From: Phycisphaerales bacterium
Lineage (GTDB): Bacteria; Planctomycetota; Phycisphaerae; Phycisphaerales; UBA1924
NCBI GenBank assembly: GCA_015487555.1
Contig: WFPK01000075.1
Span: forward strand, 1 to 38,535
Length of the DNA: 38,535 bases
Reading direction: 5' to 3'
A program made the position numbers and the translations under genes. This document shows, piece after piece, positions 14,198 to 38,535 of the stretch (positions within the stretch are counted from its first letter, which is position 1; each line of letters opens with the position of its first letter). Below the pieces are notes generated by a model, which saw nothing but the letters and a program-made list of their open reading frames with translations, did not search any database and had not been told where the DNA came from.

Positions 14198-14275
14198 GAG
14201 CCGCGACCGTAAGGGAGCGGTCTTCTCTTTGACCATCCTGATTCAAAGACCGCTCCCTTACAGTCGCGGCTCGTT
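14195..14275. repeat. Long inverted repeat of the AACGAGCCGCGAC family
   Basis: The left arm (14195-14232) and right arm (14243-14275) are near-perfect complements, each about 33 nt with the core CGAGCCGCGAC-GTAAGGGAGCGG and differing by one base and a CTCT insertion. It lies between two converging genes and could also end transcription from both sides, though T-tracts are lacking. The form is that of a REP/BIME-like dispersed palindrome; only one copy is in the window. Confidence 0.75.
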
Positions 14276-19694: not shown

Positions 19695-19729
19695 ACCGTT
19701 TCTGACGGCTGGTTTACCAATCCAAATCT

Positions 19730-19763
19730 GGGTGCCACGACTCGCCCGAAGGGCGCAGTCGTG
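19730..19763. repeat. REP-like palindrome, GTGCCAC family
   Basis: A single hairpin unit: CACGACTCGCCC, then gaa, then GGGCGCAGTCGTG, preceded by GGGTGC. It matches the arms of the elements at 21454 and 36223 apart from central bases. It lies between the converging fur-type and exbD genes and could also act as a terminator. Confidence 0.7.
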
Positions 19764-19789
19764 CTCTTTATCTTCCCTCTGCCTTCTCC

Positions 19790-21453: not shown

Positions 21454-21547
21454 CCGGTGCCACTACTCGCCGTCTTCGGCGCAGTAGTGTCTTTGGGATG
21501 CTTTCTCTGTATGCCGCACTACTGCGCCCTGCGGGCGAGTAGTGGCA
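21454..21547. repeat. Paired inverted REP-like element, GTGCCAC family
   Basis: Two hairpin units face each other: GGTGCCACTACTCGCC ... GCGCAGTAGTG (21454-21487) and the inverse copy from CACTACTGCGCCC to GTAGTGGCACC (21515-21547), separated by 27 nt. The whole forms a BIME-like 94-nt element between tsaE and exbB. Confidence 0.8.
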
Positions 21548-21561
21548 CCCGAGAGGAAGCT

Positions 21562-22271: not shown

Positions 22272-22356
22272 GGTGGCCCGGCTCGCCGAGCCGGGTTCTT
22301 GTTTTTATGAGCGTGTTCAATGCATCCCAAGACCCGGCTCGGCGAGCCGGGCCACC
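22272..22356. repeat. Paired inverted REP-like element, GGTGGCCCGGCTCG family
   Basis: GGTGGCCCGGCTCGCCGAGC (22272-22291) and its inverted copy ending GGGCCACC (to 22356) flank about 35 nt of unrelated sequence. Each arm is itself a palindrome (CCCGGCTCGCCGAGCCGGG). The 85-nt element lies between serA and tsaE; relatives are at 34874 and inside rimO at 37251. Confidence 0.85.
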
Positions 22357-34873: not shown

Positions 34874-34950
34874 GGTGGCCCGGCTCGCCGAGCCGGGTTT
34901 CTTGCTGTTGATATGACCAAAGAAGCCCCGGCTCGGCGAGCCGGGCCACC
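34874..34950. repeat. Paired inverted REP-like element, GGTGGCCCGGCTCG family
   Basis: GGTGGCCCGGCTCGCCGAGC at the left (from 34874) and the inverted arm ending GGGCCACC at 34950 flank about 30 nt of unrelated sequence. The 77-nt element lies between rarD and the small membrane protein gene, as the one at 22272 lies between serA and tsaE. Confidence 0.85.
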
Positions 34951-36212: not shown

Positions 36213-36222
36213 TCCAGATTCA

Positions 36223-36312
36223 GGGTGCCACTACTCGCCCGAAGGGCGCAGTAGTGCGGTCAACGACGATAAGAAGACACGACTGCGCCGAAGATGGTGA
36301 GTAGTGGAACCC
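36223..36312. repeat. Paired inverted REP-like element, GTGCCAC family
   Basis: The left hairpin (GGGTGCCACTACTCGCCC ... GGGCGCAGTAGTG) and the right, more diverged unit (CACGACTGCGCC ... GTAGTGGAACCC) form a 90-nt inverted pair. It is the third clear member after 19730 and 21454. Confidence 0.78.
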
Positions 36313-36419: not shown

Positions 36420-38186
36420 ATGTCCACCGACCCATCCAACATCAAAACCATCTCCTTCGTCTCCCTCGGGTGCCCCAAGAACCTCGTCGATTCCGAGAAG
36501 ATGCTCGGACTCCTCGCAGCTGACGGGTTGATGCCCGTTTCCGCCGAGATCATCGAAGACCAAGAGCACGATGATCTGTCGGTGTCCGGCTCCGAACAAG
36601 ACGCATCCGCAGCCGATGGACGCGTCACGCCCGCCGACGCCGTCGTCATCAACACCTGCGGGTTCCTCGAAGCATCCAAGCAAGAATCCCTCGGCGTCAT
36701 CAACGAAGCGGTCAAACTCAAAGAGCAAGGCAAAATCAAACGCATCGTCGTCGCCGGGTGTCTGGTGCAACGCCATCGGGCCAAGGTGCTCGATTGGGCA
36801 CCGGGGATCGATTCGATGGTGGGGGTGTTTGACCGTGAGCACATCATCGAAGCCGTCCGAGGCGTCAAGTCCGAGCGCGAGACACTTGAAGAATCACCCA
36901 AATACTGGATCAACGCCAATGCGATTACGAGTGCCGAATCCCAAGGCATGGAAACCGTCGGGCTGACCGTCGCAGGCAAAGACGGCAAGGGCATCGGATA
37001 CTTCGAGTCCGACAACGCCCGATTGCGCCTGACCCCGAGGCATTATTCCTACCTCCGCATTTCCGAAGGCTGCAACCAGAACTGTGCCTTCTGCACCATC
37101 CCCTCGATCCGAGGCAAGATGCGATCCAAGCCTCAAGAACGCATCATCGAAGAAGCCAGAGAGCTCATGCGCGATGGCGTCTTCGAGATGCTCATGATCG
37201 GCCAAGACACCACAAGCTACGGCGACGACATCGGCGTCGGGTTGTACCCCGGTGGCCCGGCTCGCCGAGCCGGGTCTTCTCGAGCCGGGTCTTCTTCAGT
37301 AAATACAACCAATACAGATCCCGGCTCGGCGAGCTGGGCCACCGGGGATAAGTTCCACGCCGGGCTCCCCAAACTCCTCAAATCCCTCTCCGACGCCATG
37401 ACCGAAGAGATCGGCAAGGGCTGGCTGCGGATGATGTACGCCTACCCGACCTACTTCAGCGACGAGATCATCGACGCCTTCGCCGAGATCGCCGATCGCG
37501 GGAATCTGCTGCCGTATTTGGATATCCCGCTCCAGCATGGCTCGGATCGCATGCTCGATCTGATGCGCCGCAATGTGAGCAGTGCTCATCAAACCGAACT
37601 CTGCCATAAGCTCCGCGAGCGCATCCCCGGCATGGCCATCCGCACCACCTTCATCACCGGCTTCCCCGGCGAGACCGACGCGGACCATCAGCAGCTGTTG
37701 GAGTTCATCGAGGAAGTCCAGTTCGATGCCCTCGGGTGCTTTCAGTATTCCCAGGAACCCGGCACCGTCGCCGGTCGGATGGAAGACGATCCCAAACTCG
37801 CAGTCCCCGCCGAGATCAAACAACAACGCCACGACGAGATCATGGCCCTCCAACAGCAGATCGCCTTCGACCAGGCTGAGTTCGTCGCCAGCCAGTTCGA
37901 TCCAGAAAAACCAACCGAGACCGGCGCTCAGTTCGATGTGCTCATCGACAAGTCCACGGGCAATCGGGTCGAAGCAACGCCCGGCGTTTCCGATGGCGGC
38001 ACGCTCTACAGTGGTCGCACCTACTTCCAAGCCCCGCAGATCGACGCAACAACCCATGTCATCGCCAAGAACCCACGCTCGCCGGGCGAGTTGGTGCGCT
38101 GCACCATCGTCGCCAGCGACGGCTACGACCTGATCGCTCGCCCGATCGAAGAACTCGAACGCAAAGTCTCGTTAAATATCATGTAA
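36420..38186 (+). CDS. rimO: Ribosomal protein S12 methylthiotransferase with an internal REP-derived insert
   Basis: RimO is a radical SAM enzyme that methylthiolates a conserved Asp of ribosomal protein S12. The MTTase domain holds its three cluster Cys (C18 in SLGCPKNLVDSE, C80 in INTCGFLE, C114 in VAGCLVQRH); the radical SAM motif CNQNCAFC gives C218, C222 and C225; a C-terminal TRAM domain fills about 510-585. At 588 residues it is far longer than the 441 of E. coli. Extra pieces lie at about 43-70, about 160-205 and 278-308. The last, GGPARRAGSSRAGSSS and so on, is exactly a palindromic repeat read in frame, after GQDTTSYG at a loop that varies in the family. The frame stays open and all key motifs are kept. 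Confidence 0.94.
   Translation: MSTDPSNIKTISFVSLGCPKNLVDSEKMLGLLAADGLMPVSAEIIEDQEHDDLSVSGSEQDASAADGRVTPADAVVINTCGFLEASKQESLGVINEAVKLKEQGKIKRIVVAGCLVQRHRAKVLDWAPGIDSMVGVFDREHIIEAVRGVKSERETLEESPKYWINANAITSAESQGMETVGLTVAGKDGKGIGYFESDNARLRLTPRHYSYLRISEGCNQNCAFCTIPSIRGKMRSKPQERIIEEARELMRDGVFEMLMIGQDTTSYGDDIGVGLYPGGPARRAGSSRAGSSSVNTTNTDPGSASWATGDKFHAGLPKLLKSLSDAMTEEIGKGWLRMMYAYPTYFSDEIIDAFAEIADRGNLLPYLDIPLQHGSDRMLDLMRRNVSSAHQTELCHKLRERIPGMAIRTTFITGFPGETDADHQQLLEFIEEVQFDALGCFQYSQEPGTVAGRMEDDPKLAVPAEIKQQRHDEIMALQQQIAFDQAEFVASQFDPEKPTETGAQFDVLIDKSTGNRVEATPGVSDGGTLYSGRTYFQAPQIDATTHVIAKNPRSPGELVRCTIVASDGYDLIARPIEELERKVSLNIM
37251..37343. repeat. REP-like element inside rimO, GGTGGCCCGGCTCG family
   Basis: The 93-nt element has the same arms as those at 22272 and 34874: GGTGGCCCGGCTCGCCGAGC at the left, and an inverted arm with one change (GAGCTGGGCCACC) at the right. 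It is 31 codons exactly and contains a 15-nt tandem duplication (cgagccgggtcttct at 37266-37280 and 37281-37295). It adds residues 278-308 to RimO. Confidence 0.88.
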
Positions 38187-38264: not shown

Positions 38265-38535
38265 ATGACTAAACGGCATCGACGGCAACACGGGCTCTAC
38301 GGACAAACCATCATCGACGCATCCGACCAGCCGATCGTCCGCATTGCCCGGCTCGCCACCAGACTCGCCCGCGGACACATGACTGACTACGCCCACAAGT
38401 ACGCGCCCAAGAAGTTCACCCAGCCGCAACTCTTTGCCTGCCTCATCATCAAGGCCCACATGGGCTGCACCTACCGCAAGGCCGAAGAACTGCTCACGCT
38501 CATGCCCGCGGTGCGTGAGGCCATCGGACTCGAGG
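38265..38535 (+). CDS. Transposase, N-terminal part (cut by window edge)
   Basis: The 90 visible residues start at the ATG at 38265, with AGAGGA 4 nt upstream. The stretch YAHKYAPKKFTQPQLFACLI followed by IKAHMGCTYRKAEELL resembles the N-terminal helical region of IS4/IS5-type DDE transposases (typically FSPKxYTQHQLFALLxLK...YRxLEELL). The DDE catalytic core would lie beyond the edge. The sequence just upstream (cctgccctgtccaaaacccc, 38209-38228) could be the left end of the element. The start is 78 nt after rimO. Confidence 0.72.
   Translation, partial: MTKRHRRQHGLYGQTIIDASDQPIVRIARLATRLARGHMTDYAHKYAPKKFTQPQLFACLIIKAHMGCTYRKAEELLTLMPAVREAIGLE

Follow-up and report, generated by a model that had tools for sequence, protein, structure and literature searches.

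Inverted doublets of REPs, the REPINs, have been described together with their RAYT transposases as primarily extragenic elements, with 14 16-mers overlapping genes (PMC3116915), and one model holds that a REPIN copied into a gene destroys it (PMC8049555; see also PMC2817692 for background). The original prediction for the locus studied here took REP/BIME elements to be normally confined to intergenic DNA, which is too strong, since REPs inside genes are documented: GTAG/CGTC REPs and their dimers occur within ORFs, where they encode 20-30 amino acids, a good number of them in repair genes (uvrA and uvrB among these), and in two Xanthomonas different REPs lie at approximately one recB site (PMC3733652). 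The same work cites the Rickettsia palindromic elements as palindromic repeats found in many ORFs. Among the TnpA_Y1 transposases, class 2 is characterized by an HUH and a Y---NP motif, while class 3, reported from Planctomycetes, is REPtron-like; the survey that described them set aside a few proteins of unexpected length, which it regarded as gene fusions or annotation errors (PMC6006769).

Here we analyze a 38,535-nt stretch of DNA (the window) from a Phycisphaerales bacterium, along with the organism's own draft genome (G000; 2.64 Mb in 115 contigs, 93% complete) and those of its relatives. Since REPs lying in frame within genes have been published before (PMC3733652), the insertion in the rimO gene of this window is by itself not new in kind.

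A REPIN-like element in rimO and its family

The rimO ORF scores 391.6 bits against the TIGR01125 (RimO) model in profile searches (cut-off 356.95). It contains a block that, as had been predicted, is 93 nt long and codon-aligned with the 588-residue frame. The parts of this block and the other members of the same family in the window are:

36420..38186, + strand: rimO, 588 aa, the host gene (ORF; TIGR01125 over cut-off)
37251..37343, + strand: REPIN-like insertion of 31 codons in the rimO frame, made up of a spacer between two inverted REPs (absent in 16/16 parsed same-genus rimO genes)
37251..37274, + strand: left REP arm, identical to the family arm: a GGTGG head followed by a palindrome of 19 nt (9+1+9)
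37266..37295, + strand: 15-nt tandem duplication (CGAGCCGGGTCTTCT twice), in frame, overlapping the end of the left arm (repeat detection)
37275..37319, + strand: 45-nt spacer between the arms, no stop in the rimO frame (sequence)
37320..37343, - strand: right REP arm, inverted, one mismatch (arm match)
22272..22356, no strand assigned: REP pair of the same family, 85 nt; no frame whose flanks are both coding in composition runs through it
34874..34950, no strand assigned: REP pair of the same family, 77 nt; here too, no frame whose flanks are both coding in composition runs through it

Each 24-nt arm is palindromic and the arms are inverted relative to each other; therefore, the rimO block comprises two inverted REPs, which match the family arm at 24/24 and 23/24 nt. 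The sharing of arms between this block and the two other pairs, as originally proposed, is borne out by six matches in the window (over 20 nt: 37251-37270 on the + strand, 37324-37343 on the - strand with 1 mismatch, 22272/22337 and 34874/34931) against 0.00 expected in 100 shuffles, though the arm measures 24 nt rather than the 20 nt first given. The 15-nt in-frame duplication is likewise real (period 15, 2.0 copies, 100% match) and missing from the other two copies in the window. RNA-fold z-scores for the three window pairs are -7.2, -12.5 and -10.8.

Across G000 the arm of this family, which we term family A, is found 68 times in the forward and 66 times in the reverse orientation (134 in total at up to 3 mismatches), with a reversed-pattern control yielding 0. 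These form at least 68 units, namely 49 inverted pairs, most of them 76-85 nt in length, and 19 singles; the units were counted in 45 stretches around the listed arms plus the window, and elements with two diverged arms were possibly missed. Family A thereby meets several criteria for REPs and REPINs, namely a palindrome with a head of the GT[AG]G type, the canonical REP head (PMC6006769), inverted doublets and high copy number, along with a RAYT flanked by the same REP (at C25:63750-64415, see below). We are highly confident that the 93-nt block is a REPIN insertion.

The window also holds an inverted pair of another REP family at 14198-14272 (the GAGCCGCGACCGTAAGGGAGCGG type, with 54 arms in G000); despite these 54 arms, G000 yielded no match at 1e-15 to the type of transposase present in the relative G015. 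Related palindromic repeats of the CACTACTCGCCCGAAGGGCGCAGTAGTG type are seen at 19727-19764, 21456-21550 and 36220-36311, the last just upstream of rimO. Directly 3' of rimO, positions 38265-38534 read as an IS-transposase-like ORF that is cut by the window end and has no Pfam match.

A RAYT between family-A arms inside valS

Two Y1/HUH transposase matches were recovered in G000, one on contig C12 and the other in the valS gene on contig C25. The valS ORF encodes 1352 aa and scores 922.9 bits as a valine--tRNA ligase (cut-off 704), with the NF047646 RAYT family matching its residues 563-693 (96.8 bits, cut-off 80). The family-A arms on either side of the RAYT are perfect, 28 nt long and inverted (C25:63750-64415, 666 nt); further along the same ORF lies another REPIN in frame. 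This is the only ValS in the assembly, barring weak matches on C113 (~28% identity). The ValRS structure 1gax aligns to its residue 302 and resumes at residue 377 past the insert, within which the TnpA_REP structure 4er8 is matched (E 4.3e-4); when the RAYT domain was modeled (pLDDT 86), the best solved structure was 4er8, TnpA_REP on a REP hairpin (E 1.9e-8, TMq 0.67). Thus, the curated family score, the HUH (PDHVHM) and Y---NP (YIVDNP) motifs and the TnpA_REP fold all meet the criteria for a RAYT, while that of a stand-alone gene with its own start is not met, the domain being embedded. With only ATG, GTG and TTG considered as start codons, none is present in frame over the 76 codons that precede the RAYT core, which is likewise true of 9 of 16 embedded copies. 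No intein model was found among the Pfam and NCBIfam matches of the valS ORF.

We consider it probable, if well short of certain, that the valS RAYT is the mover of family A. Alternatively, the family might be spread by another transposase, coded either in the unassembled 7% of the genome or by the stand-alone RAYT on C12, with the valS RAYT as a mere passenger. An unseen RAYT is possible because G000 is a draft, and the second RAYT at C12 and the presence of A arms in G008 without an A-flanked valS RAYT lend this alternative some weight; however, the perfect A arms on both sides of the valS RAYT oppose it, as does the absence of any family-A arm (at up to 6 mismatches) from the 10-kb stretch with the C12 RAYT. 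We hence view it as unlikely, though still viable.

A comparison of REP families with the transposases they flank covers A and two further families, B and C. Family A, with 134 arms in G000, has 29 in G008. Family B has 52 arms in G001, 26 in G016, 23 in G015 and 17 in G011, and flanks the valS RAYT of G001, G011 and G016. Family C has 68 arms each in G015, G044 and G047, 54 in G000, 49 in G016 and 104 in G051; it flanks the valS insert of G015, G018 and G044, with a C variant doing so in G047. There are exceptions to this correspondence: G008 has its 29 A arms, yet a different REP surrounds its valS RAYT; G015 has 23 B arms, yet carries the other transposase type in valS; and neither G016 (49 C arms) nor G000 (54) has a G015-type match at 1e-15. 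These exceptions indicate that arms can outlast their visible mover or occur without one.

Recurrence of embedded transposases

The REP-flanked RAYT inside valS is not confined to G000 but recurs in many genomes and in several host genes. In the ValS of G000 and of the relatives read, a class-2 RAYT occurs in 11 proteins and another HUH transposase in five, all in one common loop, which in others is short and empty. The HUH motif is present in 11/11 class-2 inserts and Y---N in 10/11, the motif Y being missing in the G023 valS RAYT. We rejected the tyrosine of KRYTA as the catalytic residue, as it is F or H in most rows; the published Y---NP motif fits class 2 instead (PMC6006769). The second transposase type resembles the published class 3 by its motifs, and Y1_Tnp was over cut-off in all three class-3-type ValS ORFs tested. 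Inverted repeats flank all 16 ValS inserts (18 nt or imperfect in G051 and G039), and those of the class-2 inserts start in one codon register, as judged by reading. In G018, the valS with a class-3-type insert (L184) is divided between open frames of 1131 aa and 393 aa, scores just below the ValS cut-offs and is either a broken gene or an assembly error; hence, not every host copy is intact.

The G016 RAYT domain used as a query found 60 matches in 49 of the 301 genomes of the order, 52 of them lying in open frames that are 399 aa or longer. Thirty of these loci were fetched: 22 have ValS on both flanks, seven have Ham1/RdgB and one was unparsed. The G015-type query gave matches in 67/301 genomes, and 30 of its loci comprise 12 with ValS on both flanks, nine in which this is not the case and nine unparsed, so that this transposase type is often outside ValS. 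RAYTs embedded in LeuS exceed the family cut-off in G028 (91.5 bits) and G032 (82.6 bits). The 31 classified loci (of 80 named) include four from Planctomycetota with the RAYT in PurH, one from Phycisphaerales with it in IleS and two with restriction-type hosts, the RAYT score being below cut-off in two of the PurH loci and the IleS locus. The RAYTs of L331 and L300 share a frame with restriction genes of the MmeI type and of type ISP, L300 being from a Deltaproteobacteria MAG. Of the classified loci from other phyla, 10/14 are in frames of at most 256 aa. A candidate at G040:C54 was set aside as a chance open frame, and the lack of internal stops in long-frame transposase copies was not used as evidence, being circular.

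Evolution of the valS inserts

In the RAYT tree, the 11 ValS-embedded class-2 domains and the LeuS-embedded one of G028 (the row G028_alone) form a single clade (98/94) with G056 as its sister; the remaining 28 RAYTs in the sample, all best matches, fall outside it. Apart from that of G028, the rows not taken from valS each represent the best match of one genome and are not proven to be stand-alone; one of 30 loci was unparsed in the extraction and left out. On two ValS trees, which have long branches and were used for interleaving alone (G013 being left out, as its ORF lacks the ISRQ marker), the RAYT, class-3-type and empty states are interleaved: the RAYT label requires at least five or six changes and clusters no more than shuffled labels. 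Comparison of G016 and G000 gives identities of 92% for the left ValS flank, 42% for the RAYT and 60% for the right flank, while that of G016 and G001 gives 62%, 88% and 48%, respectively. The disagreement of the right flank with the left suggests that ValS itself may be mosaic. In the G008 valS (L179), the left flank is 96% like G001 and the right 93% like G016, pointing to either recombination or a chimeric draft contig.

Pairwise dN/dS of the RAYT is 0.08-0.13 among G016, G001 and G011, 0.15-0.22 between G014 and its closer relatives, and higher (0.31-0.44) in pairs with G000. The low values among the three relatives, coupled with the wide spread of the valS RAYT in the order, could also be read as signs of domestication, with the RAYT being a synthetase domain (an additional module for RNA binding, for instance) and not a guest that moves. 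That reading fits poorly with the patchy and interleaved states on the ValS trees (notwithstanding their long branches), with two transposase types at one valS site, with the discordance of the RAYT and the left ValS flank (for which the right-flank figures disagree) and with RAYTs in unrelated hosts such as Ham1 and PurH, and we deem it improbable. As far as can be judged from these comparisons, the pattern looks more like a turnover of selected elements at one valS site than simple descent.

In-frame REPs in core genes

Open frames that run through family-A units are observed in a range of core genes. Domain searches place 13 insertions in frame in 12 G000 genes, encoding a UbiD-family decarboxylase, a Kbl-type acyltransferase, UvrA, UvrB, SMC, NrdJ, a glycogen debranching enzyme, MqnE, a glycosyltransferase, an amidohydrolase, ValS (twice) and RimO; those in UbiD, Kbl and the glycosyltransferase are single arms rather than pairs. 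The 11 genes other than rimO strengthen the proposal that repeats can create protein segments. Only genes with domain support were counted: UvrC (L103), RNase R (L090) and the amidohydrolase L099 were excluded, as the element is upstream of the domain or its flank is non-coding in composition. Sorting units into genic and intergenic by the coding potential of their flanks was too weak to be of use: it scored 65 of 68 units (three being at edges), called five in-gene and overlooked established cases, UvrA and NrdJ among them, so that the units outside the 12 genes have no firm assignment. In MqnE (L083), the final residues (GPARRAGPPGMEMALTIL) of the 480-aa ORF look, by reading, as if encoded by another REP arm, so that a REP may supply the protein end.

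We compared the host genes with six same-genus genomes plus an alignment, rows being missing for some combinations of gene and genome. The inserted segment is missing in 6/6 relative rows for UbiD, in 2/2 for the glycosyltransferase and in 3/4 for UvrA, the fourth having a different short insert. The debranching enzyme and the amidohydrolase had no relative rows in the local alignment, and the empty site of the latter rests on contiguous matches in relatives. REPs of other families, scored in DNA at up to 5 mismatches, occupy some of the same loops. For instance, G015 and G016 each have a C pair in the MqnE loop, where G013 has none, and in the NrdJ loop a single C arm is seen in G016 but not in G010. 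The UvrB loop has a C pair in G016 and G014 and a B-like pair (4 mismatches) in G015, with no REP found in G010, G011 and G013 at this threshold. SMC of G016 has a decayed family-A pair. Since the SMC relatives and UvrB of G013 have loops of similar length without REPs of the three families, some loops, probably including those of SMC and UvrB judging by the relatives, were already long before a REP arrived.

The rimO site itself is empty in relatives. The loop has 35 residues in G000 and seven (SQVKGSD type) in 16/16 parsed same-genus genes, none of which has a trace of the repeat; the short loop is also evident at the DNA level in all six aligned (G009, G010, G013, G014, G015 and G016). Four further same-genus genomes had no full rimO match and are not among the 16. 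The original prediction would have been refuted by related rimO genes having a segment of the same length but unrelated sequence, which was not the case; the short, repeat-free loops therefore indicate insertion, not convergence. From these alignments the segment is a lineage-specific in-frame insertion: 31 codons are encoded, as first stated, and the net gain is 28 residues. The predicted move into a tolerant surface loop is thus upheld for the insertion, on account of the relatives' seven-residue loops, while the loop part depends on an AlphaFold model with pLDDT <50 at residues 262-308, and its support for a flexible loop is weak because confidence is low overall (68.3 for the entire model). 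In line with the intact catalytic motifs noted in the original prediction, C18, C80, C114, C218, C222 and C225, which we take to be the cysteines tied to RimO catalysis, are invariant in a 24-sequence alignment.

The predicted rimO hairpin is very stable, and the segment could have been kept as an RNA hairpin or regulatory element, or have given RimO a new function. Its absence from the 16 parsed same-genus genes and the presence of family A in unrelated genes leave this quite doubtful. An assembly or binning artefact might be suspected given the draft assembly and some elements at or near contig ends; however, the rimO copy, with its mismatch and duplication, differs from the other two copies in the window, and the valS arrangement recurs in other assemblies, including the single-contig genomes G095 and G069, rendering an artefact very improbable. 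Chance resemblance of an old rimO loop to the repeat, for which we found no supporting point, can effectively be dismissed given the 24/24 and 23/24 nt arm matches, with 0.00 expected, and the short, unrelated loop of the relatives.

A proposed history and its relation to known systems

The explanation that we prefer, and in which we are fairly confident, is that a REPIN from the 134-arm family lies in rimO, is read through, and was likely moved by the valS RAYT. The REPIN would have been inserted into the rimO frame once this lineage had separated from the compared relatives, and the 15-nt tandem duplication would then have lengthened it; it would be read through as a flexible segment of 31 residues, translation being an inference. 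Family A would most likely be moved by an HUH transposase, a RAYT, the only A-flanked one found being that inside valS. Its HUH chemistry is presumed to act on single-stranded REP hairpins, cleavage being inferred as well. Selection would keep only stop-free, in-frame insertions in permissive loops, and the valS RAYT may be translated as a fusion with its host. In the absence of expression, proteomic or transposition data, the movement, translation and function of the REPs and the embedded RAYT remain inferred.

A wider proposal, to which we give only tentative credence, somewhat short of an even chance, is that a lineage of REP transposases in Planctomycetota exists mainly as in-frame guest domains of enzymes that are essential or conserved widely, namely ValS, LeuS, IleS, Ham1/RdgB and PurH. 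These would be translated with the host, active and sheltered by its frame, and would seed REPINs tolerated in core genes, with the loops being re-colonised, in an intein-like manner without splicing.

Like the REPIN/RAYT systems, family A has inverted REP doublets with a spacer, many copies and a REP-flanked RAYT; unlike them, to judge from the accessible part of their description (PMC3116915), the REPINs of G000 are in frame in core genes and the RAYT is inside valS. With the intragenic GTAG/CGTC REPs it shares REPs and dimers in ORFs, including uvrA and uvrB, but a whole RAYT embedded in a host gene is not described in the available portion of that report (PMC3733652); moreover, A, B-like and C pairs here share one uvrB loop in different species. 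The ValS inserts have the HUH and the Y---NP (class 2) or Y----Q (class 3, by reading) motifs of TnpA_Y1, and in contrast to the survey of these, as far as it was accessible (PMC6006769), transposase fusions are numerous and their sites shared. The Rickettsia palindromic elements are alike in being palindromic repeats inside many ORFs, though without a sequence comparison. To our knowledge, no resident transposase is known for them. Inteins and homing endonucleases are mobile nuclease-type ORFs that lie in frame in essential genes and recur at one site. The valS RAYT is similarly a mobile-type ORF in frame in a conserved gene at one recurrent site; however, no intein family is among the host ORF matches (residue-level splicing was not considered), and a REP-flanked HUH transposase is found instead.

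In a literature with few subscription journals, we found no report of a RAYT or transposase inside a tRNA synthetase, of in-frame REPtrons or of Planctomycetes REPs in coding DNA. What is new is the gene-embedded, in-frame REP transposase, together with in-frame REPINs in core genes and several families re-using loops, its mobility, expression and enzyme activity being inferred. This suggests that some mobile elements shelter inside genes that the host cannot lose. For annotators, it is a warning that long "fusion" RAYT proteins should not be thrown out. Should the mover prove to be an integral part of valS, with its in-frame offspring being tolerated, this would offer a testable explanation for the persistence and tolerance of REPIN/RAYT systems. 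It would also, if true, give mobile DNA a natural way of extending core proteins by new segments, and the replicate insertions at shared loops could be compared with one another.
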